A DNA stretch of 64,000 bases, taken from positions 1,116,001 to 1,180,000 of the forward strand of contig NZ_CP061739.1 of the NCBI RefSeq assembly GCF_014770435.1. The letters run 5' to 3'. The position numbers and the translations under genes are program-made. How positions within the stretch are numbered: position 1 is the stretch's first letter; every line of letters begins with the position of its first letter. Shown in pieces: positions 28,488 through 46,051 of this stretch. The stretch is from Psychrobacter sp. 28M-43. GTDB taxonomy: Bacteria; Pseudomonadota; Gammaproteobacteria; Pseudomonadales; Moraxellaceae. Under the pieces are notes generated by a model. It ran no database searches. It was not told where the DNA came from and was given only the letters and a program-made list of their open reading frames with translations.

Positions 28488-29000
28488 ATGAGTAACCATG
28501 ATGCTATCGATCGCAGTGAAGTAAAACATATGTCAAAAGAAACAAAAGAAGACTTAAACGCAGACATCATTACCGGTGAGCCAGGTTCACATCCAGTAGG
28601 TACAGGTATCGGCGGTGTAGGCGGTGCAGCAGCAGGTGCAGCTATCGGCACAATGGCAGGTCCATTAGGTACGCTAATTGGTGGTGCTATTGGTGCTATC
28701 GTTGGTGGCGGCGCAGGTCATGCAGCAGCAGAAGCCATTGACCCAACTCATGAAGAAGCGTACTGGCGTGCAGAGTATGCAAACGCCGATTACCATAGAG
28801 AAGAATACGACTTCGACCGTGATTTGCATCCAGCATATGCAGTTGGTTATGCGAACCGTGCTCGTTATCCAGTAGATGCTCGTTTTGAAGATCACGAAGC
28901 AGATTTAGAGCGTTCATGGCACGAAGTAAAAGGTGAGTCTCGCATGGAATGGAACGAAGCGCGTCAAGCATCACGTGATGCATGGAACCGCGTATCATAA
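28488..29000 (+). CDS. Glycine-zipper-containing hypothetical protein
   Basis: A 170-aa protein with a polar N-terminus, a central Gly/Ala-rich hydrophobic stretch (about residues 38-85, with repeated GxxxG spacing such as GTGIGGVGGAAAGAAIGTMAG) and a Tyr/Asp/Trp-rich C-terminus (YDFDRDLHPAYAVGYANRAR, then W..SR..W.EAR.A.RDAW). Glycine zippers pack helices in membranes or oligomers. The C-terminal pattern is one I have seen in many environmental proteobacteria without known function. There is no signal peptide. AAGGACAATACT gives a good ribosome-binding site. Monocistronic, with a terminator at 29161. Confidence 0.75.
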   Translation: MSNHDAIDRSEVKHMSKETKEDLNADIITGEPGSHPVGTGIGGVGGAAAGAAIGTMAGPLGTLIGGAIGAIVGGGAGHAAAEAIDPTHEEAYWRAEYANADYHREEYDFDRDLHPAYAVGYANRARYPVDARFEDHEADLERSWHEVKGESRMEWNEARQASRDAWNRVS

Positions 29001-29160
29001 GAAAGTTTAAATAATTAATAGAACGGTTAGGCAAACATCTTGGCAGACAGTTCACCTAGTAATTAGCTAATATTAGAAGTTGCTATACCATTACCTAAAA
29101 TAGATTAATTGTATGTCCAGTTCTATTAGTAAATCTACTTATCAACATTTATGCTATTTT

Positions 29161-29195
29161 AAAACTTCCAAAGTTTAACTTTGGGAGTTTTTTTA
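29161..29195 (+). terminator. Intrinsic terminator after glycine-zipper gene
   Basis: AAAACTTCCAAAGT, loop TTA, ACTTTGGGAGTTTTTTT. The stem includes one G-T wobble and ends in seven T on the plus strand. It also separates this unit from the EEP-family gene. Confidence 0.8.
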
Positions 29196-29266
29196 GGCAT
29201 AAAATTTGCAGCGTATACACATACGTGAATATTATGTACTATAATAATGAGAACGATGGGGAACAT

Positions 29267-30289
29267 ATGAGTAATAACACTGAAAGTAGTAAACAGTTTT
29301 ATATCGCAACGGCAAACCTGCTGAACTTTGCGAACCCTAATCGAACTTATTATGAAAATGCGCCAGCTTATAACGATGAAACCTATGAACATAAGCTGCG
29401 AGGTCTTACAGATTTGTTGGCTAAAGCGCATGCTGACATTATCGCAGTACAAGAGGTTTGGGATAGTAATGCATTAGAGGCGCTGGCTGTTTCACTAGGT
29501 TTTAAGCCCGAGCATGCGGTCATTCCACTTGCAAGTAACGATAGCGCCAGTATATATACTAAAGGTATGGGTGCACAGAATACGCCTGCTGTCGGTATTA
29601 TCAGCAGATTTGAGCAGTTAGAAACCAGTTTGCTAGAAAATATAGCACCAAAAGCCATTATTGATGTACCTGATATCGGCCCTTATCAACGCTTCAACCG
29701 TCCTCCATTAGTATTACGTGTTGACGCGTACGGGCAGCCCATTACAGTTATTACAGCGCATCTAAAAAGCAAACGTGCTTTTTTCTTACGTGACGAAAAT
29801 GGTGACCTATTAGAAGACATGGACGATCCAAATATTCGAGTTCGCGCCAAGCTTCGTAGTTTATGTATGCGCGCGGCAGAAGCGGCTTCTATCCGTATGT
29901 CTATCATAGAACGATTGCAACATACCCGTGAACCATTGATTCTATTGGGCGATATGAATGATGTCACAGGTAGCGTGACTACTCAGTTGATGACAGAAAC
30001 TGGGGAAGTGAATTACGATAAAAGTATGCGTGATGTTGCACTATTTGATGCTGCTCGGATTCAGGCACGATATGGCTGGATGAAGGATGTTGCCTATACC
30101 CATATATATCAAGGCATGCCAGAAGTTATTGACCAGTTATTTGTCTCAGAAGAGTTTTTGCCTGATAGTAAGTTTTCGCTCGGTTATGTCGAACGAGTCG
30201 ATTATTTTAATGATCATTTGAAGTGGGACTATGCCGATAGAGTCACTGAGCATGGTATTATAAGGGCGAAAATAAAACTCAATGATTAA
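29267..30289 (+). CDS. Endonuclease/exonuclease/phosphatase (EEP) family protein
   Basis: A 340-aa protein of the DNase I/exonuclease III/sphingomyelinase-like superfamily. Metal and catalytic blocks are visible: IATANLLNFANPN (Asn, about residue 16), DIIAVQEVWD (Glu, about 66), VITAHLKSKRA (His, about 163), LLGDMNDV (Asp and Asn, about 227) and a C-terminal FNDHLK in place of the usual SDH. The substrate, nucleic acid or phosphoester, is not evident. No signal peptide is seen. I chose the ATG at 29267 because GGGGAA lies just before it; an in-frame ATG or GTG upstream adds 14 residues with no ribosome-binding site. Confidence 0.85.
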   Translation: MSNNTESSKQFYIATANLLNFANPNRTYYENAPAYNDETYEHKLRGLTDLLAKAHADIIAVQEVWDSNALEALAVSLGFKPEHAVIPLASNDSASIYTKGMGAQNTPAVGIISRFEQLETSLLENIAPKAIIDVPDIGPYQRFNRPPLVLRVDAYGQPITVITAHLKSKRAFFLRDENGDLLEDMDDPNIRVRAKLRSLCMRAAEAASIRMSIIERLQHTREPLILLGDMNDVTGSVTTQLMTETGEVNYDKSMRDVALFDAARIQARYGWMKDVAYTHIYQGMPEVIDQLFVSEEFLPDSKFSLGYVERVDYFNDHLKWDYADRVTEHGIIRAKIKLND

Positions 30290-30526
30290 CTTTATAAAAT
30301 TAGACGGTTAGCTCTATTAAATTGCTGATCGTAGTATTGTTTTTTAACCTATTCATGTCCCTTGCTTGATAATGTGCAAGCGTTTATGATGCCTCTGCAT
30401 TGAATATAGTAGTGACCATACAGGCTTTATATTTTAGCTGACAGTCAACCATCCTTTATCTGAGGATAAATACTATTCAATGAAGATTATATTTATAAAA
30501 TAGGGCGCAACATTAAGAGATTCACA

Positions 30527-31219
30527 ATGAGTGATAATAAAGACGAAAAGATTGAAGATGTGTTGGTAGATTCGGAATTGGCAAAGAAGCTTGTACCTAA
30601 TAAGTTTAAGTTTACTAGCCAGCAAGGCCGTGCACGTCGTCAAAAACTATTGGCTGGTGCCAAAAAATTGAGCGAAACGCATGCTATTAACGATATTACG
30701 TTAGCAGCTGTGTGTGAAGAAGCGGGTATACCAAGAGCTTCTGCTTACCATTTTTTCCCTAATATTGAAGCAATATTTTTAGCATTGCGTTTTTTGAATG
30801 CGATTGAAATATTAGAGATGGTAGAGACGGTCGATATTGGCAACTATGACAGATGGCAAGGGTATTTAACGGCGCTTATCGATCATTGTATTACCATATT
30901 CCATAATGATGAGACAAAAGCCAAGCTTATCTATGATACTAATACACCTGATTTTGAAGGTGACAGTTTTGGTGAGGATATGGATCATCAAATTGTTGAT
31001 TTGGTCTATAAGCGTTTGTCAGAGCGTTATGAGATGCCAAACTTCCATGATATCCAAGATACCTTGTTGATTGCTTATAGTATCGTAAATGCTATCTTTA
31101 CGTTGTCTTATCGCCGTCATCAGAGTATCACTGAAGAGTATATCCAAGAAGCAAATACAGCATTTATTGCTTATTTACGTTGTTACCTACCAGAAAAGTT
31201 GCCACGTAAAAACCGCTAA
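30527..31219 (+). CDS. TetR-family transcriptional regulator
   Basis: A 230-aa TetR/AcrR-type repressor. The N-terminal helix-turn-helix is seen as INDITLAAVCEEAGIPRASAYHFFPNIEAIF-like sequence (about residues 56-86, with the hallmark AYHFFPN). It is preceded by an about 35-residue basic N-terminal arm. The C-terminal ligand/dimer domain is helical and unlike any I can name. It is monocistronic, with a strong terminator after it and no divergent partner, so its target cannot be read from position. The downstream neighbour is the surface-protein locus on the opposite strand. Confidence 0.85.
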   Translation: MSDNKDEKIEDVLVDSELAKKLVPNKFKFTSQQGRARRQKLLAGAKKLSETHAINDITLAAVCEEAGIPRASAYHFFPNIEAIFLALRFLNAIEILEMVETVDIGNYDRWQGYLTALIDHCITIFHNDETKAKLIYDTNTPDFEGDSFGEDMDHQIVDLVYKRLSERYEMPNFHDIQDTLLIAYSIVNAIFTLSYRRHQSITEEYIQEANTAFIAYLRCYLPEKLPRKNR

Positions 31220-31235
31220 TTGAGCTTACTTTAAA

Positions 31236-31271
31236 CATAAAAAAGCCGACAAATATGTCGGCTTTTTTATG
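31236..31271. terminator. Bidirectional intrinsic terminator
   Basis: CATAAAAAAGCCGACA, loop AATA, TGTCGGCTTTTTTATG: a perfect 16-bp inverted repeat with A and T tracts on either side, between convergent tetR-type and 258-aa genes. It closes the surface-protein locus on the minus strand. Confidence 0.92.
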
Positions 31272-31335
31272 TTTAGTTTTTAGTATAGGACTGGAAATAA
31301 TACAGATTAATATCTCTAATAAAACAGCGACTATT

Positions 31336-32112
31336 CTAACGGTTAGACGTCAAATCTTGTCCACGGCAAGTATCATCGCTCGCATCTAAAGGCGAGTACT
31401 GCTTATGATAACTGACTATTGACTTCTCTAGCGCTACATTGGTCTGTGAGTCATTTGCATTGACGTAAGCTTCGCGGGCTTGTTCAAGCCAGCGATCGGC
31501 CATACGAAAATGCATACCAGATTCGCGCCAGCCTCGCGCACATTGATTGGTTGCTGCCCAAATTAAAGCCACTTCACTAAATGCCATCTCACGTGGTGCT
31601 GATGTTATGCCATCGCCGTCTTTAAGTGCGCTTAACGTTGCCCATAGATCAGGACGCATTAAGGCAGAGGTAGACGGAATATCTTGATGCAAGCCCAAGT
31701 CTTGTACCGTATCATTATCTAGCGCTTGCAATATAGGCTCTGCCATTTCTAACGCAACTTGACCTGCGGATGAGCGGCTATTCATACTGTCTTGATGAAT
31801 AGCATAGTTCAACCACGCTTGCGCTTTGTAAGCGAAATACTGTTGAGCTGCTTTCTTGTCTTTTTGTTGATAAGGTTTTAACTGCGTGACCATACAATTT
31901 AACAGGCGCTGTTGTTCGCTTTGATATCTATAAGAGCGTACTTGAGTCTGACTATCATTGCGGCAGTATTCAGCCATGCTAGTTGAGTGAGCCACTTGGA
32001 CAGTCTCACTCTTAGCTAAAGCTGGCTGCATAAAGGTTAACGAAAATAAAGCTGACAGTGTAACGCATACTGAGCGCTTGAAAGGTGCTGCTTTGATGGC
32101 TGAATCAAACAT
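31336..32112 (-). CDS. Exported protein of unknown function (258 aa)
   Basis: A 258-aa protein with a signal peptide (about residues 1-33, ending MQPALA). The mature part is alpha-helical and polar with four cysteines (in AEYCRND, LLNCMV, TNQCARG and DDTCRGQ), an even number that suits disulfides in the periplasm. A segment rich in Ala, Tyr and Trp (YFAYKAQAWLNYAIHQDS) resembles helical N-terminal regions I have seen before OmpA-type C-terminal domains, but no such domain is present here. Last gene of the minus-strand surface locus, 155 bp after the 1775-aa gene. Function unknown. Confidence 0.65.
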   Translation of the reverse strand: MFDSAIKAAPFKRSVCVTLSALFSLTFMQPALAKSETVQVAHSTSMAEYCRNDSQTQVRSYRYQSEQQRLLNCMVTQLKPYQQKDKKAAQQYFAYKAQAWLNYAIHQDSMNSRSSAGQVALEMAEPILQALDNDTVQDLGLHQDIPSTSALMRPDLWATLSALKDGDGITSAPREMAFSEVALIWAATNQCARGWRESGMHFRMADRWLEQAREAYVNANDSQTNVALEKSIVSYHKQYSPLDASDDTCRGQDLTSNR

Positions 32113-32216
32113 GGTATAAACCTTATGTTAAGGTAATAAACGTTGGTATTATTTACCATTACTAGGGCTGACTTAATTGTTTATTGAATGACAAAATAAT
32201 TTATCATAAGACAAGC

Positions 32217-32254
32217 ATGATACTGTCATAAGGATGTACTTACGACAGTGTCAT
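32217..32254 (-). terminator. Hairpin after the 1775-aa gene
   Basis: ATGATACTGTC and GACAGTGTCAT pair (10 of 11, one wobble/mismatch) around a 16-base loop, just past the stop codon of the giant gene on the minus strand. No T run follows on that strand, so termination is likely partial. Confidence 0.4.
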
Positions 32255-32267
32255 TAGTATCAATCAA

Positions 32268-35200
32268 TTAAAATGCAGAATTGCTGCTCAGACGTTGGTT
32301 CTTACGTGGGTCTTCACGTTTGAATAGGTCTTCATCAAACTTAAAGCGCAATCTAAAGTAAGCACCTTGCTGAGTACTGTCGTCATAAGCAATATCTTCA
32401 TCTTCAAAGCCCATGAAGTTATAACCAAGTGATAACCAAAGGTTGGTCATTGGGCTATAACCCACTTCTGCACCAAGCATATAAGCCAAGTCATTTGCCT
32501 GATCATTCCAATAAGTACCTGCTTGTAAGCCAATATCCCAGCGCTCACTAATGTCATAAAGACCGCGGCCATAAACAGCATGAGCCGTGTTATCGCTGGT
32601 TAAGCTATCTGCTTCGTATTCTGTATACTTACCAGCATAACGTCCAGACAGCGTTAGAGGACGCGTAGGATGGTAATTACCATTCCATGACCAAACCATA
32701 GTGTCTTTTTGATAAGCGTCATCGCCAGTATTATTATCATCTAAACGATATTCAAATTTTGCAAGCATATCTAACTGATTGCTATCGTAGTCACGATACG
32801 CAGCACCTAGCTGAAAACGATTGATAGTGCGATCACCATCACTATAGTCAGTGCGTGAGTAGATGTCTTTGGCTAAGAAGGTAACCTCATCAGTATAGCG
32901 ATAGGCGATACCAGCACTACCAAGTAGCGTATCACTTGTTTCACCCCAACGTTTTTCAAAACGTCCCGATGCCTTATAGTTCTCTTTGGCAAGATATTCA
33001 ACACCGATACCTGCCGCTGTTGCAGTGTTGCTTTCTTCACCTTCCAGAGACTCGACACGCTCAAATAAAGTGTTTAAGGTTAGACCTTCTTGAACATACC
33101 ACTTGTTTTTTAGACCAATAGCTGCTTCTGCCTCACGTGCACTGATGGCGTCACGCATGCGGTATTCGCTATAAACCTTACCATCTTTCATGTAAGTGGC
33201 ATCAAAACCAACAGTGGTACGTTGACGCTCATCTGTATCATCAAGACCATAAGTACCAGATAGGCTGTTGATCAAATCATGACGAGCGTATAGACGACCC
33301 AAGTCCCCAAGTGCTGTCTCACCACCGATAGAAGTTGCATTACGTGAGCTGTTTTCGATATCTTGCTCATACTCTGCAAATACCAAGCTGTTATTCAACT
33401 TAGGTAGACGAGAGGTAATACGAGCGCGAACAGTCGTACCTTCAATATCTTCTTCAGCATTACTAACGCTGCTCAACGCTGACTGATTGATGATGTCATC
33501 ATTAAACAGAGTGTCGTCTGTAATATCTACAACGTCTGTCGCGGCTTGAGTATTACGTGAGGCAGCAGTCGCGTCTTGTTTGTAATAACGAACCCCAATT
33601 TCACCAACGATGTTTTCACTTAAACGATGCTCAACGCTTGCTTGCACGCCTTCGCGGCTAGCGTCAGTAGTATGCTCTTCTGTGCGTATGCCTTCTAACT
33701 TAAGAGCAGTTTTCTTATCATTTAGAGTATGAGTAACCTCTACACCAGATTCAGTACGTCCAGCAGTAAGCGGTGATGCACCAGTGACAAAACCTTCATC
33801 AGCATCATTATAATAAGCTTTGGCAAGCGTATTTTTCTTATTATCAAAATCAAGCTCAATACGTAGTGCGTTACCTTCAACATCACTATCAGTCAATTCT
33901 GTCGCGTTGATTTGATTACTTGACTGAAAATTTGGATTCTCAGCTTTGTTCATCGCATATTCTGCGACCAGTTTTAGCTTATCATTGAATTTAACAACAC
34001 TATTAACACTAGCCAACTCTTCTTTGTTCAGTGGGTCATCGCTATTCACATAGCTACCACCGATGGCGACTTTATCCGTCAGTTGTTGCTTCGCGGCAAT
34101 ACCACCGACGAAGTAATCTTCACCGCCTTCATCAACTTCGACAATGACACGGATATAGATAGGATTGCCCTCGATGTCTTGACTAGCAATCGGTGCAGTT
34201 AAGAATAAGCTGCGGCTGATAGGGTCAATCTCATAATCAGCAAAGCGAGTAAGCGTCTCACGATTGATAATAAGCCCAGGGTTGTTGGCGTCACGAGTAA
34301 TAACTTCAACCGTTTCAGAGTTTTCTAATACCGCATCGAAGTTCTCAGCCAATGGATATGGGCCTGAAATGCCCAAACCGCGAGTCTCATTTACACGTTG
34401 GCTAGTACTGGTCTCTGCTAAAAAAGCAGTAACACGAGTATTGCTATCTTCAAATTGAGCTTTTAGACCAGTTAATGTACGGTTGTATTGACCAAGTTTG
34501 ATACCTTCATCGTTATCAATTTGTGTTTTCAAATCACCATACATAGCGAATGAGCGACCTTTATCAAGGCGCACGTAAAGCTTGCTAGTAGATTGCGCAT
34601 CGAAACCTTTGGCTGATGAATCGCCATAGACAGGATAATATTCGCCAGGCTCGATATCACGGAACAAACGCTCGCCTTTTTTATCACTATCATATGCAAG
34701 CGTAAGCAGATAGTCGCCGCGTACTTTTCCTTTGAGGAACATCGCGGCACGACCAGAAGCTGTGTAATCATCATTACCAGCAAAGTCATTTAGCTCTTGC
34801 TCAAATGCACCTTGAGCATCGGTAATGCTGCTACCGTCAAAGTCTTTTAGTGAAATAGCACCTTCTACAATACCAACAGCAAGTAGTGGACGTAGTTGAG
34901 CTGTAAACTGTAACGGAATGATTTGTTTGCTGCTACCAGTGTCAATTACTAGCTCGCCCTTACCTGGTACGCTAGGTGCAGTTACGGGTATTAATAGCTC
35001 ACCACCAGAAACAGTAATTTGAGTACCTGCTTTATCTTGACTGTCATCCTTTAGATTGATACGACCGATATTAGTATCAAGCGTAAGAGAAGTAGTACCA
35101 ATATAAGGACGATTATCGCGATCTTTCAGGCTGATGATGACTTGGTATTCACTAATACCGTCAGCTGGAACTAATTGTGCTTGAGTACGGTAGTCGATAG

Positions 35201-37595
35201 CTTGTAGGCTGTCAGGAGTTAATACCTTAATCGTCTGCTCAGAGATGATCTGACCATTTATATCAGTCGCAACACCACGTAAGGTGTTCTTGCCGCGCTG
35301 TAAATCAACAGCATAGTAATCGAAAGCCGTTACATTCTGTTTTTCTTGCTCAGCAGTTTTACCGATCTTCTGTTCTGATACAGCTTTGCCGTTGGCATAT
35401 AGTGTGAACACAGACCCAAGCGGTGCCTGAACCTGTACCATTTGTTTATAAGTGCTAAGCTGCTGACCTTCGTTCAGGTTAATGAAGGCAACATCGTTAC
35501 TCGCCACTTCTTTTAAGTATTCTTCGAGCTCTTTTTCTACTGGCGGAGCAACAGTGGTCACTGTCATATCAACACGGCTATCTATTGGATTAACCATGTC
35601 ATTAACGATAGCCGAATCACAGTTATTACCAAGGTCTAAGTCACCATTGATGTTACAACCACTAGCATCTACATTGTCAGTAGTATCGGTATCATAATCA
35701 GGATCTAAAGTCAGCTCGGTTTTTACCGCTTGCTCTAACGTGTCATTTTTAGCTTCTACTAATTTGCTACGAGCAATTAGCTCAGCGTTTAAGCGTTCAG
35801 TGCTATCCGCCATGCCACCAACGATTGCAAAATCTGCACGATGTAATTCGCCGTACTTCAAATCAACAAAACGACTACCGGCATCACCAGCATTACGATT
35901 GCTTTGGGTAACCAGTTCAGTCTCTCTAGGGATAGTAGTACGATCGACCTTTAGTACGTGTGTTTTGGCACTGATACCATAGAAGTTATATTTACCTTCA
36001 GGATCAGTCACGATGAAGTTGCCGTTCTCCATATAGATACGTACACCAGCGACACCAAGCTCGCCGCCTTCTTTTTGCTGAATACCATCGCGGTTGATAT
36101 CATGATAGACCTTACCAACGATAATACCATCAGTATTCATCGCTCCGCGATCTACATCAATTTTCCACTGAGCTTCTCTTGAGCCGACGCTTTGACCTTG
36201 GTCATCTCTAGCAACTGCGGTGGCGCGGTTGATACCATCGCCGCCTAGTGATGACGCACCGATGAGCACACGATAAGTAACTTTTTTACTTTCGTTAACT
36301 GCCATGTTTCCTAAGTTCAATACCTGATATTTACCATCAGCTTTAAACTCAGTGGTCTGCGCTTGGTTGATATCAATATCAGTCGTTGGACTAACACGTA
36401 CACTGTTCTCAACGTAGTCAAAACCACGTGGTAAAGCGTCTTTTAGTTGTACATCGTAAGCAGTCGATTTGCCGTTATTGGTAATATCGATGGTATAGCT
36501 AACATAATCACCAAGCTCTGCAGTTTTGACATCACTTTCTTTCGTAACAACCAAACTGGCACTATTATCAATGATACTTACTTGAGAACTCAGATCCTCG
36601 ATAACTACAGTAAAATCGCTATTACTTGGTAGCTGATCAGCGTCTGTACCAACAGAAGGAGCAATACACGCTGTTAACTCAGCAGTCAACGTATCGTTAG
36701 CTAATGTCTGAATGAACTTATCATTAATAGCATTGGCGTTGTTTTGTGTCGGTGCAGTTAGACGATATTTGCCTGTATTATTACCAGTTTCAATTCCTTT
36801 AAGAGAGTGGGTATCACCAGTCGTTGGCGACTTAACAGTAATCCATACTTGATCAGGTTTATCAGATTGCACGTTACACTGCGCGTAACTGGCATCAATG
36901 TAAACGTTGTCCCCGATTTGCGAGGTGGTTTTAGTACCGTCAAATTGAGGGGTAGTAAAATTGATTTTAGGTTCAACAATAACTAGTCTGTCAATTGCTT
37001 CAACGGCTGCTATTGATGGATCTTCTAGTATGATAGCGCCAATCTTTACATCAGCGGTATCGCCATCTTCACCGTCGGCATTTGATAGAGCCTGTACGAT
37101 AAGCTGAATACTCTCACTCTGACCAAGTTTGATCTGAGCGCTCAGGTTATCGAGCATGATTTGTCGATCTTCTGAATCGACTTCACCATTATTATTAAGA
37201 TCTTGATAGACCTTTAAATTAGAAACAGTTGGTGATATAGCAAGTGTCAATTCAACAGTCTGATCACTATAGCTGGTGTTACTCAGTACGTTGATCCAAC
37301 TTACCTGTGTATTAGGCATGACTGTGCGTAAAGCATGCTGAGTCAAACTGATACCATACTCAGGTAAGGCAGAGGCTTTTACTTGTACTTGGTTTGAGTC
37401 AGTACTGATAGTCGTACTGGTCTCACTGTCAACGTTATAGCTGGCCTGAGCAGTATTATTGATCAGTTGTACCAATGAATCAGTTGCAGCAGATGCGGTA
37501 TTTGATTGCATAAGCAACATTGCAAATGACAGCGCAGAGATCTTCGCTGTATGCAACGTAGCACGATTAGACAGTGTCATTAAAGATTTAGTCAT
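32268..37595 (-). CDS. Giant surface/outer-membrane protein with DUF11, SdrD-B-like, Ig-like and C-terminal barrel regions
   Basis: A 1775-aa protein. A signal peptide (about 1-36, ending NTASA) is followed by INNTAQASYNV (45-55), a pattern shared with the 702-aa neighbour. A calcium-loop-like DLNNNGEVDSED lies at 132-143. A DUF11-type domain (about 345-480, LVVTKESDVKTAELGDYVSY) precedes an SdrD-B-like domain (about 490-570, VGKVYHDINRDGIQQ, again a Ca-loop pattern) and an Ig-like domain (about 795-905). From about 905 to the end the sequence alternates in a way typical of outer-membrane beta strands, with RLDKGRSFAMYGD and many Tyr/Asp turns; the chain ends in Phe. The ATG at 37595 is preferred over an upstream TTG. 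Likely an outer-membrane anchored adhesin or export/assembly platform; the exact role is unknown. Confidence 0.72.
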   Translation of the reverse strand: MTKSLMTLSNRATLHTAKISALSFAMLLMQSNTASAATDSLVQLINNTAQASYNVDSETSTTISTDSNQVQVKASALPEYGISLTQHALRTVMPNTQVSWINVLSNTSYSDQTVELTLAISPTVSNLKVYQDLNNNGEVDSEDRQIMLDNLSAQIKLGQSESIQLIVQALSNADGEDGDTADVKIGAIILEDPSIAAVEAIDRLVIVEPKINFTTPQFDGTKTTSQIGDNVYIDASYAQCNVQSDKPDQVWITVKSPTTGDTHSLKGIETGNNTGKYRLTAPTQNNANAINDKFIQTLANDTLTAELTACIAPSVGTDADQLPSNSDFTVVIEDLSSQVSIIDNSASLVVTKESDVKTAELGDYVSYTIDITNNGKSTAYDVQLKDALPRGFDYVENSVRVSPTTDIDINQAQTTEFKADGKYQVLNLGNMAVNESKKVTYRVLIGASSLGGDGINRATAVARDDQGQSVGSREAQWKIDVDRGAMNTDGIIVGKVYHDINRDGIQQKEGGELGVAGVRIYMENGNFIVTDPEGKYNFYGISAKTHVLKVDRTTIPRETELVTQSNRNAGDAGSRFVDLKYGELHRADFAIVGGMADSTERLNAELIARSKLVEAKNDTLEQAVKTELTLDPDYDTDTTDNVDASGCNINGDLDLGNNCDSAIVNDMVNPIDSRVDMTVTTVAPPVEKELEEYLKEVASNDVAFINLNEGQQLSTYKQMVQVQAPLGSVFTLYANGKAVSEQKIGKTAEQEKQNVTAFDYYAVDLQRGKNTLRGVATDINGQIISEQTIKVLTPDSLQAIDYRTQAQLVPADGISEYQVIISLKDRDNRPYIGTTSLTLDTNIGRINLKDDSQDKAGTQITVSGGELLIPVTAPSVPGKGELVIDTGSSKQIIPLQFTAQLRPLLAVGIVEGAISLKDFDGSSITDAQGAFEQELNDFAGNDDYTASGRAAMFLKGKVRGDYLLTLAYDSDKKGERLFRDIEPGEYYPVYGDSSAKGFDAQSTSKLYVRLDKGRSFAMYGDLKTQIDNDEGIKLGQYNRTLTGLKAQFEDSNTRVTAFLAETSTSQRVNETRGLGISGPYPLAENFDAVLENSETVEVITRDANNPGLIINRETLTRFADYEIDPISRSLFLTAPIASQDIEGNPIYIRVIVEVDEGGEDYFVGGIAAKQQLTDKVAIGGSYVNSDDPLNKEELASVNSVVKFNDKLKLVAEYAMNKAENPNFQSSNQINATELTDSDVEGNALRIELDFDNKKNTLAKAYYNDADEGFVTGASPLTAGRTESGVEVTHTLNDKKTALKLEGIRTEEHTTDASREGVQASVEHRLSENIVGEIGVRYYKQDATAASRNTQAATDVVDITDDTLFNDDIINQSALSSVSNAEEDIEGTTVRARITSRLPKLNNSLVFAEYEQDIENSSRNATSIGGETALGDLGRLYARHDLINSLSGTYGLDDTDERQRTTVGFDATYMKDGKVYSEYRMRDAISAREAEAAIGLKNKWYVQEGLTLNTLFERVESLEGEESNTATAAGIGVEYLAKENYKASGRFEKRWGETSDTLLGSAGIAYRYTDEVTFLAKDIYSRTDYSDGDRTINRFQLGAAYRDYDSNQLDMLAKFEYRLDDNNTGDDAYQKDTMVWSWNGNYHPTRPLTLSGRYAGKYTEYEADSLTSDNTAHAVYGRGLYDISERWDIGLQAGTYWNDQANDLAYMLGAEVGYSPMTNLWLSLGYNFMGFEDEDIAYDDSTQQGAYFRLRFKFDEDLFKREDPRKNQRLSSNSAF

Positions 37596-37633
37596 ATGTC
37601 GCTTATCCAATAAAATATAAAGGGGTAGGGTAG

Positions 37634-37715
37634 TAACGCTCCAGCTTGGCTAACCAAAATCAATTAGGTCAAGCCGGAGCGTTAGTCTATAAGCATCTTG
37701 TGAAGCTTATAGACT
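37634..37715 (-). promoter_or_regulatory. Tandem hairpins between 702-aa and 1775-aa genes
   Basis: Two inverted repeats fill the 124-bp gap: AGTCTATAAGC/GCTTATAGACT (37684-37715, perfect) and TAACGCTCC-AGCTTG/CAAGC-CGGAGCGTTA (37634-37684, one mismatch). Read from the minus strand the first is followed directly by the second, with no T run after either. This suggests mRNA processing or 3'-end protection that lowers expression of the giant gene relative to the one before it. Confidence 0.55.
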
Positions 37716-37734
37716 TTGCAATATCAAATATAAA

Positions 37735-39843
37735 TTAACGAGCGTTTTTGATTTTGATCTTAAAGGTCAATGTGCCAACGCCCTGAGGAACTATAGTGTA
37801 GTTAGTACCAAGAACCGCAGTAGCCGAAGTGCTAGCTGTGCCTGCAGTAGATGACGTAGTAGCAGAAGTAGCAGGTGAATTAGCTACTAAATCCGCACCA
37901 GCTGAAAAGTTAGACAACAAATCCGAAATCGTTACACCAGTAAGATTAAAACCTAATGCTGCTGAAGAAGTGTTAGTCGCCTGAATACGATAGATAACAC
38001 ACTGATCAGGTTTCGCATTGAGCGCAGTTTGAACAAAGGTACTTGAAGCAACGGTAGCTTCACAAGCAGTATCTAGTGATTGAGACTTCACCAAAGATAA
38101 GCCTCTGACATTAGTCGTATCAGTCACTGAAGTAGCAGCAGGCGCACCAACACCAGCTGGGGTCAAAGTTACGATAGTCGTTTCAGTGCTACCAACAGCC
38201 GCCGCATCAGCAGCAGTTGCAGGAGTAGTGACATTACCTGAAGAGACATTATAGTTGATTGCTAATGTGCCACCAGGTGCAATACCGTTTGGAAATTGAG
38301 CGGTTGGTAGTGTAGTGCTATTAAGAGTGTACGTATTACCACCAGCAACGGTAGGTTGTAGCGTTATAGTAACTGGAGCTCCACCATTAGGCGGTGTATA
38401 AGTAACACTGATAGGACCAGTAACCGGTCTGACAGCCGCATTATTGCCACCATCAGCAATAGTGAAAGTCAATGGATTGGTATTAGTACCTTCAGCATCC
38501 TGACCGCTGTTAATAATAGTAGTCTTCTGTGTGACTTGACCATCAGTACCTGAGGCAGGGGCAATTTCTCTAGTCGTTGGATTGCTCACTATAACCGCTC
38601 GTCTGGTAAAGTTAGTCACACCAGGAGTATCTATACCAGCGCCGTTACCTTCACCCGCATTATCAGGTATTCTAGTAACACCTATAGTGCTATCTGTACT
38701 ATCTAAAATGTCATAGTCAGTACCAAGTACAGGAGCAGCAATTAACGGGCTAACCGGACCGACGAACTTATCGTAGACTTCTGCGTTGTTAGTTACTGAA
38801 CTATTAGCAGCTGTATACTGCTCTCTATCAACGTTAACCGTGAAAGTAATCGTGCGACTTGCGCCAACAGCTAAGTTTGCTACGGCAACATTAATAGCTT
38901 GTCGAGTACCGATAGTGGAAATCGTAGCGGTACCAGCACCAGTTACGGTCACGTCTGATGCTGCGCCATTAGGCAAACTTAAACCTGCAGGAAGGACATC
39001 CCTGATGACAATATCAGTCGCAGCAGCACTATAGTCAGTAGTAGCGTTAGTCACTACGATACTATAGTTGATCTGCGGATTAGCTACTGTCAAATCGACA
39101 GTACTCGTCGCTGTTTTTACAATTTTGAAGGTAGGCAATCTCACGATAGTTTGGTTTTCATTCACTAATGTCGCATTTGCTGGAAGATTAGCAGTAAAGA
39201 AAGTACTGGTTGCTGTTAATGTACCTACACCTTTGTCATTACCATTACGAGCGTCTGGCGTAGCTGCTTCGTAGCTTAGATTAGCTCTAGTACCTGGCTG
39301 TAGTTTAATAGTACCACCATTAGCTATGGTACCTGTCTGTGCTTGACCATTTAAAGCGGCTACTTGAGTAGAAGTTAAAGGAGTGCCATCTGCTTGTACA
39401 ATAGTAAACGTAACAGGCGCAGTACCTAAAGCATAGTCTGGAGTAGCCGTTACTAGTGCTGAGTCATTACCTGTGGTATTAATGGTATAAGTATCCGTCA
39501 CGTTACCCGTATTGGTTAAATTATGAGTAAAGGTAGTCGTACCACCTGGCGTAGCAGTCTGATTAATAGCAATATCGTCACCAATGCTGCCATCATCAAT
39601 AGTCGACGTGAGTGCAAAGTTAGCCGTTTCGCTAACGTTGACAGTCACGATGTTTGACGACACGTTTGGCTGAGCGATACCAGCAACACTATAGTTTGCG
39701 GTTGCAACGTTATTGATGGCAGCAGCACCTGCACTAACACCACCAGTAGTATTAGGAGTAGCTGCATTAGCACCACCAGAGATACCCATTACTGCGGCAA
39801 TACCGACAGCAAGCAAGCTATAGTTAAAAGTATTTGATTTCAT
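37735..39843 (-). CDS. Exported DUF11-type repeat protein (702 aa)
   Basis: A 702-aa protein rich in Ala, Thr, Asn and Val. The signal peptide (about 1-27, ending GGANA) is followed by INNVATANYSV at 43-53, matching the start of the mature giant protein. Beta-sandwich repeats of DUF11 type follow (for example FKIVKTATSTVDLTVANPQI about residue 240, and IVIRDVLPAGLSLPNG about 285). The last about 120 residues (from LVKSQSLDTACEATV) hold two cysteines and match the C-terminal module of the 676-aa protein. There is no membrane anchor or sorting motif. The ATG at 39843 has GGAG 6 bases upstream; an earlier in-frame TTG overlaps that site. Probably a surface fibre or coat subunit. Confidence 0.72.
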   Translation of the reverse strand: MKSNTFNYSLLAVGIAAVMGISGGANAATPNTTGGVSAGAAAINNVATANYSVAGIAQPNVSSNIVTVNVSETANFALTSTIDDGSIGDDIAINQTATPGGTTTFTHNLTNTGNVTDTYTINTTGNDSALVTATPDYALGTAPVTFTIVQADGTPLTSTQVAALNGQAQTGTIANGGTIKLQPGTRANLSYEAATPDARNGNDKGVGTLTATSTFFTANLPANATLVNENQTIVRLPTFKIVKTATSTVDLTVANPQINYSIVVTNATTDYSAAATDIVIRDVLPAGLSLPNGAASDVTVTGAGTATISTIGTRQAINVAVANLAVGASRTITFTVNVDREQYTAANSSVTNNAEVYDKFVGPVSPLIAAPVLGTDYDILDSTDSTIGVTRIPDNAGEGNGAGIDTPGVTNFTRRAVIVSNPTTREIAPASGTDGQVTQKTTIINSGQDAEGTNTNPLTFTIADGGNNAAVRPVTGPISVTYTPPNGGAPVTITLQPTVAGGNTYTLNSTTLPTAQFPNGIAPGGTLAINYNVSSGNVTTPATAADAAAVGSTETTIVTLTPAGVGAPAATSVTDTTNVRGLSLVKSQSLDTACEATVASSTFVQTALNAKPDQCVIYRIQATNTSSAALGFNLTGVTISDLLSNFSAGADLVANSPATSATTSSTAGTASTSATAVLGTNYTIVPQGVGTLTFKIKIKNAR

Positions 39844-39920
39844 GTAGTACTCCAAAATGGATGGTAAAAAGCCGAATAAATAATGGAAGGGTGAAAAATA
39901 AAGGTTTAACCTTCTGTTAA

Positions 39921-40385
39921 TTAGTTAACAGTAGTGTTTAAAGCCACAGCAGCTGATTTCTTAGCTGGTAACAACTTGATATTCCAGCGTAAGGTACGGT
40001 ATTCAGAATACGGAACTTGAACCATTTTGCCATTTACCTTTTTCATTAAAGGCATATCAGCATAGTTTTTGCCATCAGTGCTGGCTTGTGCGCTGGCAGG
40101 ATTTGCCTCACCAGTAAATGTCATGTTTGCAGGGATAGGCAGTGTCACCATCAGATCATTAATGTCTTTATTGATGGTATTGGTATAAGTTGCTTTGTAT
40201 TGAATGACCGTACCAGCTGGTGCTGTACGTACTGGTGAATATACTGTTTTGCCGTCCGCATTCTTAATGACCTGATTAGCAGTCAGTTCCATTTTTAGAG
40301 CGTCGTCAGCATGAGCAGTACCTAGCAAACAAGCAGAGGCAAAAGTTGCTAACATGACATTATGTAAGAGGTTAAAACGTTTCAT
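39921..40385 (-). CDS. Small exported DUF11-like protein (154 aa)
   Basis: A 154-aa protein with a clear signal peptide (about 1-26, LLGTAHA) and what looks like a single DUF11-type beta-sandwich: the strand APAGTVIQYKATYTNT (about 56-71), then DLMVTLPIPANMTF (about 77-90), and a C-terminal YRTLRWNIKLLPAKKSAAVA (about 128-147). That order (bounded opening strand, I/V-P-x-P-x motif, closing strand describing a sum) is the DUF11 plan. No cysteine remains in the mature chain. It lies 77 bp before the 702-aa gene on the same strand, so the two are probably co-transcribed. It may cap or initiate a polymer. Confidence 0.7.
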   Translation of the reverse strand: MKRFNLLHNVMLATFASACLLGTAHADDALKMELTANQVIKNADGKTVYSPVRTAPAGTVIQYKATYTNTINKDINDLMVTLPIPANMTFTGEANPASAQASTDGKNYADMPLMKKVNGKMVQVPYSEYRTLRWNIKLLPAKKSAAVALNTTVN

Positions 40386-40575
40386 ATAAAATCCTTTCTT
40401 AGAACATGACTATCAGTAAAAAGCGAACGTCGTATATCATGATGGAGGAGCTAGTAATCTAATATCATTCATCGTTTTAAAAGGCGTCTATCTCCCTTTC
40501 TTCTATTTTCACGTAATTAATACAATTAATCATCACAAAAATGACAACTGGCATTTTGGAGTATACAAACGGTAA

Positions 40576-40601
40576 AAGCCCTGTCTGGTTAGACAGGGCT
40601 T
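40576..40601 (-). terminator. Intrinsic terminator after 676-aa gene
   Basis: AAGCCCTGTCT, loop GGTT, AGACAGGGCTT: an 11-bp GC-rich stem followed on the minus strand by TTTTAC. It isolates the 676-aa gene from the 154-aa gene, so the latter needs its own promoter in 40386-40575. Confidence 0.8.
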
Positions 40602-40626
40602 AAGTAAATGTTTAATAAACAGGTGT

Positions 40627-42657
40627 TTAGTTACTAATGGTAGTACCATATTTAGTATTAAAACGAATGGCCTGACGGCGAGTAGTGGTGGTAGTACCTA
40701 AAGAAAAAGAATTGGTAGTAACTGTACCGTTGTTGCCAATAGATACCGAATTTGTTGCAAATGATGGAGTACCACTATTTTCACCAATAGGTGTTGGATT
40801 GGCTAAAGTAGAGGTAATCAATGAACTATTAGAGTCATTTTTACTCTGTAGCGTATCCTTAATAACAATATCTGCTAAGGAAACATTACCGCGATTTATA
40901 GCTTCAATTCTATAAGCGATACATTGTCCAGGGATAATGTTGGATATTGGTTTTGTACTATACGCACTACTAGCACTACCGTCATAATTAACACCAATTG
41001 TGGCAAGGTTATTTAGGCTACAGTCATGGACATACTGACTTTTGATTAATACCAACGCAGCATTTTCTTGAACAACATCACCAAAATCATTGCTAGGGTA
41101 ATTGTATTTACTGTTAGTAATGTCTATTTGTAGGACGTTACTCGTAGTATCTACAGAATATGTATAGTTGCTAGGCTCATTTTGAGTAACGCAAAGCCTT
41201 GTATAACTACCTACTTGTGCTGGCGTCAAGCTAAAACTATAGGTTCCATCATTACCAATGTTTACCGTCTGAGGTGAGAACGTACCACTATCACCTGTAC
41301 ATTTGTTTAGAGTAATGGTATGACCTGTAGTAAAAGGAATACCAGATTCAGTTGGTGAATCGTATTTGCCATTGAAATAGAGGCTATTATTTAAGTATTT
41401 GCTAGATATATCATCCTTAGACGGATTTAAAACATTACCGTTATCGTTAAATACTGTACCTGAAAATACATAGTTAGACCTGCCGTTCGTAATTGTACAC
41501 GTCCAGTTATCTCCATAAGTCAGCTTGAGGTTTTTTGGGTCTAAAGTGCTAACGGATGTACCATCTGACTTTCTACATGCGTATAGGGCAGTATAGTCTG
41601 CTAAATTTGTCGATCCTGAGACTGCTTCTGTCAATGTATAGGTCTTGGTAGGATTAACCTTGAAAGTTCCTGTAGTACCTGTGCCAGTCGTGACAGCATT
41701 ATTCGTCCCCGTTGTAGTAACAGAAGTAATACCGCTCGTAACTACCGAATTATCTGCATTGTCTTTAATCTGAACAGTAAATTGATCTGTATTCGTTTTA
41801 CGAGAAGTCGAAAGCGCTTTTGTATATGTTAAACGCGGCTGCGGTAAGTAACAATAACCATCAAATACGATATTTATTAACTGATCACCAGGATTGCCAA
41901 GATTGCTAAAGTCATAATAGTTCAAATCAGGATTATTGCCATAAGTTACATCTACTCTAACTACAGGTTGATCAAAAGCAACTGATACTTTACATTTTTC
42001 ATCTACCGAATCTGTACTACATAAAACGCTACTAGTAGTAGTGGTTTGACGATAAGGAGCTGTAGTCGTTATTCCTGTGCCCCTATATTTCAAAGTTGGC
42101 GTCACACTAGTCCCCGAACTAGTAACACCCGTTATCGTGACTTGGTCAGAAAACTCGAAATACCTAGTCCCTGAACTTGTTGAACCTATATAGTTTACAT
42201 CTATATCATATATACTTAAGCTCACATTATTAAGGGCTTGAGACTCATTAGTAAAGCTGTTTTTAAAAGTATATGAGGCCGTGCGAGACGATCCCTTATT
42301 AGTAAAATCCTGAAAAAATTCAAACGATTGGAGGTTGCCCGCTAGCGTTTTAGGTCTATAAAAATTTGAGCCGCCAGCATCTAAATTACCAGTAGTAATT
42401 AAACTGTTAGAAGCAATAATGTAACTTTCACTTTTGAGACCGTTCAAAAGTTGGTTTACACCAAGAATAGGTGGTGATGCCGTCGATCCTAAGTTGCTGT
42501 AATCAGTATTTGAAAATTCGTCCGAAATGTATCCAGCAGGACATGTTGTTATTGCTGCGAAAGCTAAATAATTAGGTAGCAGTATTAATAAGGATGGTAG
42601 AGCTATCCAACGCGTTACTCTTGACTTTAGAGTCGATGGTATAATAGACGGGTTCAT
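40627..42657 (-). CDS. Exported Cys-containing surface protein with DUF11-like C-terminus (676 aa)
   Basis: A 676-aa protein with a signal peptide (about 1-33, ILLPNYLAFA) and about ten cysteines in the mature chain, implying disulfides. The N-terminal about 230 residues form an unrecognised beta-rich domain (CPAGYISDEFSNTDYSNLG...). Around 380-520 a carboxypeptidase-regulatory/SdrD-B-like region begins SNYVFSGTVFNDNGN. The C-terminus (about 536-676, LVLIKSQYVHDC, then GQCIAYRIEAINRGNVSLAD) matches the end of the 702-aa neighbour. I chose ATG 42657 because GGAG lies 6 bases before it and the signal peptide then has normal length; an upstream start adds 26 residues. First gene of the locus, divergent from aceE. 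Confidence 0.7.
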   Translation of the reverse strand: MNPSIIPSTLKSRVTRWIALPSLLILLPNYLAFAAITTCPAGYISDEFSNTDYSNLGSTASPPILGVNQLLNGLKSESYIIASNSLITTGNLDAGGSNFYRPKTLAGNLQSFEFFQDFTNKGSSRTASYTFKNSFTNESQALNNVSLSIYDIDVNYIGSTSSGTRYFEFSDQVTITGVTSSGTSVTPTLKYRGTGITTTAPYRQTTTTSSVLCSTDSVDEKCKVSVAFDQPVVRVDVTYGNNPDLNYYDFSNLGNPGDQLINIVFDGYCYLPQPRLTYTKALSTSRKTNTDQFTVQIKDNADNSVVTSGITSVTTTGTNNAVTTGTGTTGTFKVNPTKTYTLTEAVSGSTNLADYTALYACRKSDGTSVSTLDPKNLKLTYGDNWTCTITNGRSNYVFSGTVFNDNGNVLNPSKDDISSKYLNNSLYFNGKYDSPTESGIPFTTGHTITLNKCTGDSGTFSPQTVNIGNDGTYSFSLTPAQVGSYTRLCVTQNEPSNYTYSVDTTSNVLQIDITNSKYNYPSNDFGDVVQENAALVLIKSQYVHDCSLNNLATIGVNYDGSASSAYSTKPISNIIPGQCIAYRIEAINRGNVSLADIVIKDTLQSKNDSNSSLITSTLANPTPIGENSGTPSFATNSVSIGNNGTVTTNSFSLGTTTTTRRQAIRFNTKYGTTISN

Positions 42658-43240
42658 AATAGCTCCGAGAACAAGGATAGAATATACGTATAATCTTATA
42701 ATAAGAATAATACTTAAATCACAATTAATATACACAAATGAGACGAATGTCTATTTATGGGGTATGAGTAACAAGAAGCATATTTTCGATTGGTGTTTTT
42801 ATTAATTAGAAAAGCAGATACCTACCGCTATGGAAAGTAAATTTCGTCTACCTATTACTAAAATCTTGGTATCAATGGAATAATGGTTAATAATATTTAC
42901 CTAACAACTAATCATTATTTATTTAAAAAATACTTGTTATTTCATCATTTCTCTACAGCCATAAACAACTTAGCCGTAAAGGCTTATAATGGAATGTCAT
43001 AGTCAAATAATGATTAAACGAGTAGCTATAGCATTATGACGGTTTGGCAGATGTGTTGATTTGATGCATTTGTCGATATGAGTAATACTATTTTTATAAT
43101 CAAGCTGTATGTCATCGCAAAAAACAATGGAATGCTTGGACGTAGCAAGGATGTCATAAGTAAACCAATCTCTCATCATGTATTTTTCAATGAAGCCCTG
43201 CCATTAGGTAGGTATGACTGATATAAAAGGATTAACAAGA
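42658..43240. other. Divergent intergenic region, surface locus/aceE
   Basis: About 580 AT-rich bases, no credible ORF, holding the promoters of the surface locus (minus) and aceE (plus). I see no clear operator or riboswitch; no pdhR-type regulator is encoded nearby. Confidence 0.5.
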
Positions 43241-46051
43241 ATGAATTATTATAAGGATGCTGATAGCACCGAAACTCAGGAATGGCTGGCAGCCTTTGAG
43301 TCTGTGGTTAAACACGCAGACAAGGACCGTGCTCAGTTTCTCCTAAAAGCCTTATACAATATGGCGGTTCAAGAAGGTCTTCCGTTCAACAGACTAGACA
43401 CCGCTTATGTCAATAGTATCGCTGTTGAAGATGAGCCAATGTACCCAGGCGATCTAGGCATGGAGCGTAAGATACGTGCGCTAATTCGTTATAACGCACT
43501 TGCCATGGTCATGCGTGCCAATAAAAACGACGATGATCTAGGTGGTCACTTAGCGACATTCGCCTCTAGTGCAACACTTTATGAAACGGGTTTTAACCAT
43601 TTCTTCCGCGCCGCTAGCGATCACTTCGGTGGCGACATGATCTATTATCAAGGTCACTCAGCACCAGGTATCTATGCACGCTCTTATTTAGAAGGTCGTT
43701 TGACCGAAGATCAGCTTGATAACTTCCGCCGTGAAGTAGGCGGCAAAGGCCTATCAAGCTATCCGCATCCATATCTAATGCCTGATTATTGGCAGTTCCC
43801 AACGGTATCAATGGGACTTGGCCCAATCATGTCTATCTATCACGCCCATGTACATCGCTATATGGAAAATCGTGGATTGCTAGAAAAAGAAGGTCGTAAG
43901 ATTTGGACATTCTTGGGTGATGGTGAAACTGATGAGCCAGAAAGCTTAGGGGCAATTTCTCTCGCTGGTCGTGAGAAGTTGGACAACCTAATATGGGTAG
44001 TCAACTGTAACTTGCAGCGTCTTGATGGTCCAGTCCGTGGTAACGGCAAAATCATTCAAGAGCTAGAGTCAGTATTCCGCGGCGCAGGCTGGCGAGTTAT
44101 CAAAGTCATTTGGGGTGGCAACTGGGATTCATTACTTGGTAAAGATCATACGGGTGTCCTTAAACAACGTATGGAAGAAGTGGTGGATGGCGAGTATCAG
44201 CTATATGAAGCGCGTACGCCTGAATTTACCCGCAAAGAGTTCTTTGGTAAATATCCAGAGTTGGAAGAGATGGCAGATGCGTTGACTGACGAAGAAATTT
44301 CACGTCTGAACCGTGGTGGCCATGATCCAGTTAAAGTTTACGCTGCCTTTAGCGAAGCTATGAAAACTAAAGGCCAACCGACGGTTATTTTGGTTAAGAC
44401 CGTTAAAGGTTATGGCTTGTCTGCCCAAACGCAAGCAGTCAATAAATCGCATCAGGTGAAGAAGCTTGATCAAGAAGCGTTGATGTATTTCCGTGATCGT
44501 TTTGATTTGCCATTTACTGATGAGCAGTTAGAGACTCTACCGTTCTACCGCCCTGAAGAAGGTTCGGCGGAAATGAAGTATCTAAAAGGTCGTCGTGAGT
44601 CGTTAGGTGGGCATCTACCAAACCGCCGTAGTGGTCACATCCCATTGAATATCCCTGAATTATCAATGTTTGATCGGGTATTAAAAGGCAGCAATGGTAA
44701 AGAGCAGTCTACGACAATGGTATTTGTACGCTTACTATCTGCGATGCTCAAAAACAAAGACATTCAAGATCGCGTTGTACCAATTGTACCTGACGAAGCG
44801 CGTACTTTCGGTCTAGAAGGTATGTTCCGTCAATTGGGTATTTACTCGGCTGTTGGCCAAAAATATACACCAGAAGACAGTGAAGCGTTGATGGGCTATA
44901 AAGAAGCTATCGATGGACACATGTTAGAAGAAGGTATCAACGAAGCAGGCGCAATGAGTACTTGGATTGCATTGGCAACCAGTTATTCTGTGAACGCGCT
45001 ACCGATGATTCCGATGTATATCTATTACTCAATGTTTGGTTTCCAACGTGTGGGCGATTTGGCTTGGGCGGCAGGTGACTGTCAAGCACAAGGCTTCTTG
45101 TTAGGCGCAACCGCTGGTCGTACAACGCTTAATGGCGAAGGCTTACAGCATCAAGATGGTCATTCGCAGATTCTGTTCAATGTCGTGCCAAACTGTGTTA
45201 GCTATGATCCTTGCTTTGGTTATGAGCTAGCCGTTGTCATGCATGACGGTCTACGCCGTATGTATGGTGAAGGCGAGCGCGTTTACTATTACTTGACGTT
45301 GATGAATGAAAACTACGAGCAACCTGCTATGCCAGAAGGTGCCGAAGAAGGTATCAAACGTGGTATGTACTTGTTAGAGGACAATGGTTCAACACAAGTA
45401 CAGCTATTAGGTTCTGGTGTTATCTTACGCGAAGTACAAAAAGCATCACAGATACTAAAAGACGAGTTCAATATTACTTCTAACGTCTGGAGCGTAACCA
45501 GCTTTAATGAGCTGACTCGTGATGGTATGGTTTGTGACGATTACAACCGTCTACATCCAATGGATGAAGAGAAAGTGCCTTGGGTTACTGAGCAATTAGC
45601 ACCGCACGAAGGTATTGTAGTTGCAGCGACAGATTATATGCGTAACTACTCAGAGCAAATCCGTGCTTGGTTACCAGATAACCGTCCTTATACGACTCTG
45701 GGTACCGATGGTTATGGCCGTTCTGATACGCGCGAAAACCTACGTAGTTTCTTCAACGTTGATGCTGCGCATATCGTTGTGGCAACGCTTAAACGTCTAG
45801 CCGATGAAGGCGAAGTTGAGATGCGTTTGGTTAAAGACGCGATTTCAAGCTTAGGTATCGATGTGGATCATCCACCTGCATGGCAGCAGCAGTCTTACTA
45901 TGATCAGTCTCCAGATGCACCAGCACCAGGTAATGTAAATCCAAATCCTGTACCTGAGTTTATCGCTGAAGACGATGATGAAATCAGTAATGAAGGCCGT
46001 GCTGAAGATCAAGCAGATGCAAATGTACTTGATGATAAAGATGTCAAATAA
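43241..46051 (+). CDS. aceE: Pyruvate dehydrogenase E1 component, homodimeric type
   Basis: A 936-aa thiamine-diphosphate enzyme that decarboxylates pyruvate and acetylates lipoyl groups of E2. The TPP-binding motif is GDGETDEPES...NCN (about residues 225-257). Other AceE blocks include YYQGHSAPGIYARSYLEGRL (about 133), LVKTVKGYGLS and EGLQHQDGHSQI. E. coli AceE is 887 aa; the extra length is mostly an acidic, Pro/Asn-rich C-terminal tail (about the last 50 residues). The ATG at 43241 best matches the family's N-terminus; an in-frame ATG at 43214 also has an AGG-containing upstream region. aceF follows 28 bp later; no lpd follows, so E3 is encoded elsewhere. Confidence 0.95.
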   Translation: MNYYKDADSTETQEWLAAFESVVKHADKDRAQFLLKALYNMAVQEGLPFNRLDTAYVNSIAVEDEPMYPGDLGMERKIRALIRYNALAMVMRANKNDDDLGGHLATFASSATLYETGFNHFFRAASDHFGGDMIYYQGHSAPGIYARSYLEGRLTEDQLDNFRREVGGKGLSSYPHPYLMPDYWQFPTVSMGLGPIMSIYHAHVHRYMENRGLLEKEGRKIWTFLGDGETDEPESLGAISLAGREKLDNLIWVVNCNLQRLDGPVRGNGKIIQELESVFRGAGWRVIKVIWGGNWDSLLGKDHTGVLKQRMEEVVDGEYQLYEARTPEFTRKEFFGKYPELEEMADALTDEEISRLNRGGHDPVKVYAAFSEAMKTKGQPTVILVKTVKGYGLSAQTQAVNKSHQVKKLDQEALMYFRDRFDLPFTDEQLETLPFYRPEEGSAEMKYLKGRRESLGGHLPNRRSGHIPLNIPELSMFDRVLKGSNGKEQSTTMVFVRLLSAMLKNKDIQDRVVPIVPDEARTFGLEGMFRQLGIYSAVGQKYTPEDSEALMGYKEAIDGHMLEEGINEAGAMSTWIALATSYSVNALPMIPMYIYYSMFGFQRVGDLAWAAGDCQAQGFLLGATAGRTTLNGEGLQHQDGHSQILFNVVPNCVSYDPCFGYELAVVMHDGLRRMYGEGERVYYYLTLMNENYEQPAMPEGAEEGIKRGMYLLEDNGSTQVQLLGSGVILREVQKASQILKDEFNITSNVWSVTSFNELTRDGMVCDDYNRLHPMDEEKVPWVTEQLAPHEGIVVAATDYMRNYSEQIRAWLPDNRPYTTLGTDGYGRSDTRENLRSFFNVDAAHIVVATLKRLADEGEVEMRLVKDAISSLGIDVDHPPAWQQQSYYDQSPDAPAPGNVNPNPVPEFIAEDDDEISNEGRAEDQADANVLDDKDVK

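Follow-up and report, generated by a model that had tools for sequence, protein, structure and literature searches.

Five consecutive minus-strand genes of Psychrobacter sp. 28M-43, here termed A to E, represent a conserved and apparently undescribed gene set that Psychrobacter shares with many other Gram-negative bacteria. Two of them, A and C, undergo gene-by-gene exchange around constant neighbours. The pairing of a giant barrel with adhesin-like proteins that are swapped wholesale between relatives makes the locus look like a surface-display system, and we consider it somewhat probable that it encodes a surface-displayed adhesin or, as we infer, a short fibre on an outer-membrane platform.

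Layout and domain composition of the locus

The window, i.e., the whole stretch of DNA that was analyzed, comprises 64,000 nucleotides. ORF calling by a simple script, with the lengths of A and D counted from ATG, recovered all five genes of the preliminary description in the order A (676 aa), B (154), C (702), D (1775), and E (258). The signal peptides claimed for them were recognized by eye as a charged-hydrophobic-AxA signal sequence at each start; judged from these sequences, A to E appear to begin as Sec-exported proteins do. The locus is flanked by a divergent gene at 43214-46051, which we take to be aceE-like, and a convergent gene at 30527-31219, presumably TetR-like, both assigned by eye, and a neighbour gene was presumptively named EEP. 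D is single-copy in the source genome (one 3.1 Mb contig). Promoter and terminator scans were overall not above shuffles, one strong hairpin being the exception, and for this reason gene order is the sole argument for an operon. A search of positions 29000-43300 against Rfam returned zero matches. The features are as follows.

40627..42657, minus strand: gene A, 676 aa, candidate exchangeable lectin-like adhesin (ORF, SpaA_3, model, fold matches)
41860..42576, minus strand: A residues 28-266, variable domain at the N-terminus, similar to the V-domains of antigen I/II
40630..41058, minus strand: A residues 534-676, C-terminal module common to C, with a conserved FNTKY-type last strand (hhalign prob 98.6)
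39921..40385, minus strand: gene B, 154 aa, small protein resembling DUF11 that changes slowly (ORF, alignment, sub-threshold DUF11)
37735..39843, minus strand: gene C, 702 aa, exchangeable protein with DUF11 repeats, stalk candidate (ORF, TIGR01451, hypervariability)
39511..39783, minus strand: C N-terminal module common to D (hhalign prob 96.5)
37747..38103, minus strand: C C-terminal module common to A, holding the sole two cysteines of C
32268..37595, minus strand: gene D, 1775 aa, candidate giant outer-membrane platform (ORF, families, relatives)
37236..37508, minus strand: D residues 30-120, N-terminal module common to C (hhalign)
36207..36554, minus strand: D residues 348-463, DUF11 (Pfam 2.5e-13; 50.8 bits against a cut-off of 24.6)
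35916..36113, minus strand: D residues 495-560, SdrD B-like (Pfam 1.7e-6; 28.6 against 29.7 bits, just under)
35496..35825, minus strand: D residues 591-700, linker, which in OmpA-bearing relatives is the site of that domain (7 of the 9 mapped), probably periplasmic
34896..35501, minus strand: D residues 699-900, pair of Ig-like domains, of which the second resembles intimin D0-D1
32343..34745, minus strand: D residues 951-1751, about 40 amphipathic strands, predicted outer-membrane barrel (model, strand scan, fold matches)
31336..32112, minus strand: gene E, 258 aa, likely periplasmic protein in which the OmpA domain seen in relatives is missing (alignment)
31231..31276, no strand assigned: strong hairpin, likely terminator (20-pair stem plus T tail), between E and the convergent downstream gene

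In Pfam/NCBIfam, A matched SpaA_3 (4.1e-17), with DUF7507 below the cut-off, and the motif FN[ST][KQN]Y is present in 52 of 52 A proteins longer than 500 aa. In the structure model of A (pTM 0.46), the head resembles a lectin-like V-domain, predicted to sit on prealbumin and CnaB/SdrD B stalk domains. The DUF11, SdrD B-like, and Ig-like domains noticed earlier were largely borne out: curated cut-offs of DUF11 surface proteins are passed by D and by C (TIGR01451 repeat, 26 against 24, with no Pfam DUF11 match), SdrD B in D falls just below its cut-off, and B has sub-threshold DUF11 and adaptin-like matches only. B also gave no match to PapD-type chaperones in Pfam at E up to 1, and E has no accepted family in Pfam/NCBIfam. 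A and C are likely surface components.

Terminal modules had been proposed to link the 676-, 702-, and 1775-aa proteins with each other. Profile comparison upheld this for A and C (C-terminal) and for C and D (N-terminal, in addition to one common DUF11 domain at prob 97.5), but not for A and D, where prob stayed at or below 40 for every segment pair that hhalign compared. With plain BLASTP, both links are weak (E 0.003 for A-C, 0.010 for C-D). A D-C-A chain is the simple reading of these common modules, suggesting that the proteins may contact each other in this order.

The long barrel-like region claimed for D is backed by its predicted structure (pTM 0.50; pLDDT uneven, mostly 70-90), and an outer-membrane platform or anchor is a likely role of this protein. 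The barrel superposes poorly on the solved barrels listed among its Foldseek matches (TM 0.31 or less), and residues 691-1775 have no match among PDB sequences at E up to 1. As modelled, the approximately 40 strands could form either one barrel or two smaller ones; an internal duplication of two halves was not seen (hhalign prob 0.5).

Exchange of A and C around stable B and D

Sequence identities were compared for 36 loci and the window, each contributing one full copy per gene, after loci with missing, split, or duplicated genes had been left out. Median pairwise identities were 34% for A, 76% for B, 36% for C, 83% for D, and 66% for E. Among 24 pairs with D at 95% or above, A fell below 50% in 12 and C likewise in 12; all 12 low-C pairs and nearly all low-A pairs derive from six loci (L039, L055, L057, L076, L079, and L081), within which D is 98-99% and B 99-100% identical. 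Within this group, A and C vary independently of each other, as seen for L055 and L081 (A 96%, C 30%) and for L039 and L076 (A 37%, C 98%). On DNA level, the positions matching locus L033 amount to 95% in the aceE-like gene, 90% in D, and 3% in C. Grouping at 70% resolved 53 A into 38 classes and 60 C into 31, compared with six classes for 62 B and three for 58 D.

Distribution, gene order, and the OmpA link

A D match was found in 68 of the 80 genus genomes and in none of the other 12, with remnants only in G007, G048, G064, and G075; the remnants of the last 40 residues of D in the first three of these point to deletion there. Further matches were obtained in 94 of 199 family genomes (spanning 9 of 16 genera); at class level the count was 51 of 369, and at phylum level, other classes included, 39 of 299 genomes, with a few candidates scored per genome. 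Three protein searches at E 0.001 returned at least 876, at least 782, and at least 987 members of the D family, sets which may overlap, and its holders include Acinetobacter species. Among the 120 matches listed per search, annotations were generic, 'hypothetical', or derived from domains, the exception being one 'Fibrinogen-binding protein' (P0059).

All 61 named D loci are from Psychrobacter, six loci being cut by contig ends (L032, L041, L050, L059, L064, and L088). Ignoring unlabelled ORFs, the order A-B-C-D-E is present in 37 of the 61, A-B-C-D in 44, and B-C-D in 52. Two A-B-C sets precede one D, followed by E, in L052, L053, and L067. Four loci have D without A and C: L062, L090, and L091 read B-D-E with a shortened N-terminal part of D, and L060 consists of D and E without A, B, and C; L078 lacks A. 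The 36 loci of L160-L199 with D above 1100 aa, a few genus members included, have B upstream in 24 cases, and in 23 of these a single gene separates B from D; L173 and L199, among those with B upstream, lie outside the class. At class level, a D match lies within 10 kb of 22 of the 32 strong B matches, and both genes occur together in 26 of 369 genomes against 2.7 expected, a comparison that ignores kinship and leaves weaker matches out. Adjacency is thus kept beyond chance in these samples, and homologues are clustered rather than scattered, in line with what was initially proposed. The five-gene locus is conserved and clustered; it is not a fixed unit, its widespread core being B, a C-type gene, and D, with A and E varying or missing.

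At eight Psychrobacter loci where D is absent or reduced to its tail (L202-L208 and L212), B is retained next to the aceE-like gene in all eight and E in four, and A and C are found at none. The constancy of B is partly a selection effect because seven of these loci were chosen by their B match, L212 by its D tail. At this locus, A and C were accordingly not seen in the absence of D, and each of D, B, and E can occur without the two, which fits clients needing a platform. Within the family sample, six of the eight genus genomes without D match have a B match below 1e-35; the remaining two hold a broken partial match (G001) and a weaker match only (G119). At D-less loci, B either functions on its own or persists as a slowly vanishing remnant. 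Two stand-alone B relatives exist in the source genome (L200:9401-9997 and L201:8570-9463) without adjacent A, C, or D, and similar single B-type genes occur in other genera of the family (L209-L211). This independence speaks against a role of B in this machine alone, and given the D-less genomes with B and the stand-alone relatives, B may do something else.

The N-terminal part of E aligns with OmpA-carrying proteins encoded downstream of D in other genera, and a periplasmic accessory role, as initially suggested for the 258-aa protein, is likely. The OmpA domain itself is missing from E of Psychrobacter as well as from L162 and L163 of another genus. We inspected the next three same-strand genes at 35 loci of L160-L199 with D above 1600 aa. 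An E-like gene follows D in 16 (11 with OmpA, five without), OmpA is inside D in 10, neither applies in nine, and both together in none, these being raw counts that ignore phylogeny, as do the neighbour counts. The 10 D proteins with internal OmpA (L166, L174-L177, L183, L184, L194, L196, and L197) carry one or two such domains, and no E-like gene was found downstream of them; Pfam confirmed OmpA in 4 of 4 scanned. Seven of the nine mapped proteins have the domain between their SdrD-type module and the barrel, and in L176 and L197 it lies just before that module. Since it lies between the DUF11 part and the barrel in all nine, this stretch of D is probably periplasmic. OmpA is missing from all 58 Psychrobacter D proteins.

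Several variants were observed besides. One genome holds two neighbouring modules, B-C-D followed by A-B-C-D-E (L187 and L188). At L183:15985-18666 and L184:214-2868, a 7TMR-DISM histidine kinase with response regulator domain adjoins the D module, and regulation by an external signal is possible. In L190 and L191, whose genus the named relatives of L160 suggest to be Acinetobacter, a separate DUF11-like protein is followed by a shorter, D-like one (about 1240 aa), and the platform may be split here. Finally, a D-like barrel match is embedded in an open frame of 11777 aa (G339:C2:461467-463992).

A putative display platform, its alternatives, and known systems

In the proposed mechanism, D would insert in the outer membrane via its predicted C-terminal strands, its residues ~590-700 probably being periplasmic. 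Judged from the domain swap, D may be tied to peptidoglycan via E and elsewhere via OmpA inside D; this tie is least certain in Psychrobacter because E there lacks OmpA. C would dock onto D through the related modules, and A would cap or join C via the common cysteine-pair C-terminal module. A would also present its predicted lectin-like binding domain on a stalk of prealbumin and CnaB-like domains. B could act as adaptor or periplasmic holder for the exchangeable A and C on either side, and the adhesins may be exported through D. The platform would stay fixed while recombination replaces A and C; such replacement would be expected of proteins recognized by hosts, phages, or partner surfaces, and recognition of this kind may drive the exchange.

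A more far-reaching version, which we put forward tentatively and regard as rather doubtful, would make B-C-D(-E) a new outer-membrane assembly and secretion system of more than one Pseudomonadota class. Its barrel of about 40 strands would be larger than SprA, its periplasmic docking half would be built from client modules, and it would export and anchor folded, lectin-tipped adhesins that are swapped as single-gene cassettes round a near-invariant adaptor gene.

Alternatively, D itself could be an autotransporter-like giant surface protein with its N-terminal half outside, A and C being exported otherwise and merely co-clustered. The N-terminal domains preceding a C-terminal barrel, the intimin-like Ig domain, the greater variability of the N-terminal 480 residues (61-83% identity, compared with 86-99% in the barrel), and the 4 of 61 loci with D alone of the three would agree with this. 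However, the OmpA domains inside D probably place the stretch between the DUF11 part and the barrel in the periplasm, three loci have doubled A-B-C sets ahead of one D, and A and C were not found at the eight loci without intact D, so that we consider this explanation unlikely. Even less likely is a stable coat complex between outer membrane and peptidoglycan, structural instead of adhesive and resembling Deinococcus SlpA: the wholesale change of A and C between loci with ~99% identical D would be unexpected, the modelled A domain resembles adhesins, and 12 genus genomes do without a D match. A receptor or uptake system, with D as nutrient channel and A and C as binding proteins, appears highly improbable, as D has no plug or TonB-receptor match in Pfam and none of A to E matched a transporter or enzyme family in Pfam/NCBIfam.

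The display platform favoured here shares traits with several known systems. In chaperone-usher pili, one cluster encodes a constant outer-membrane barrel of 24 strands (the usher) together with variable subunits, a lectin-like tip, and a small protein of Ig-like type; this locus likewise combines a predicted constant barrel with variable proteins, a predicted lectin-like head, and a small Ig-like protein. It differs in that A to E have no Usher, PapD, or fimbrial Pfam match (for Usher, PF00577, none in D at E up to 1), the predicted strand count of D is far above 24, and A and C are large and multi-domain. A is modelled with a build like Gram-positive antigen I/II, SdrD, and CnaB-type pilins (V-domain-like head, prealbumin, CnaB/SdrD B stalk), but is Gram-negative and ends in the FNTKY-type strand, no LPXTG being seen there by eye. 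Deinococcus SlpA/SDBC, a large outer-membrane barrel, is among the fold matches of D, although superposition is poor, as for the other solved barrels, and residues 691-1775 had no PDB sequence match; we know of no exchangeable adhesin partners of SlpA/SDBC.

With SprA, D shares the giant single-chain barrel, and SprA chains are among its Foldseek matches (6h3i, E 6.6e-7); however, TM-scores are 0.09-0.18, D has no SprA family or PDB sequence match, and no other T9SS family in Pfam/NCBIfam matched any of A to E. SprA has been described as 36-stranded and the largest known (PMC7463736). The T11SS (Slam) similarly places an outer-membrane exporter beside variable cargo, and one publication counts a 'Psychrobacter surface protein' among predicted cargo (PMC12282271). 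In contrast, DUF560 did not match D at E up to 1, and TbpBBD-type cargo domains matched neither A nor C.

Known translocase families in Pfam gave no match to D. It was rejected as a TonB receptor (no plug or TonB_dep_Rec match at E up to 1, barrel fold similarity only), an observation that also bears on the known receptor class considered for it beforehand, as an usher, as a T11SS protein, and as an autotransporter (no autotransporter, inverse-autotransporter, or YadA-type barrel Pfam match at E up to 1). As sequence features of these four types are lacking, the locus is filed under no known secretion type. Among the open-access papers listed by literature searches, none described this locus in its title or the start of its abstract, and no named system with this gene set emerged, in agreement with the preliminary description.

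If D exports or anchors the adjacent adhesins, a surface system common in environmental Gram-negative bacteria has gone unnamed. The exchange of A and C round near-constant B and D represents a natural experiment, making different clients of one platform directly comparable.
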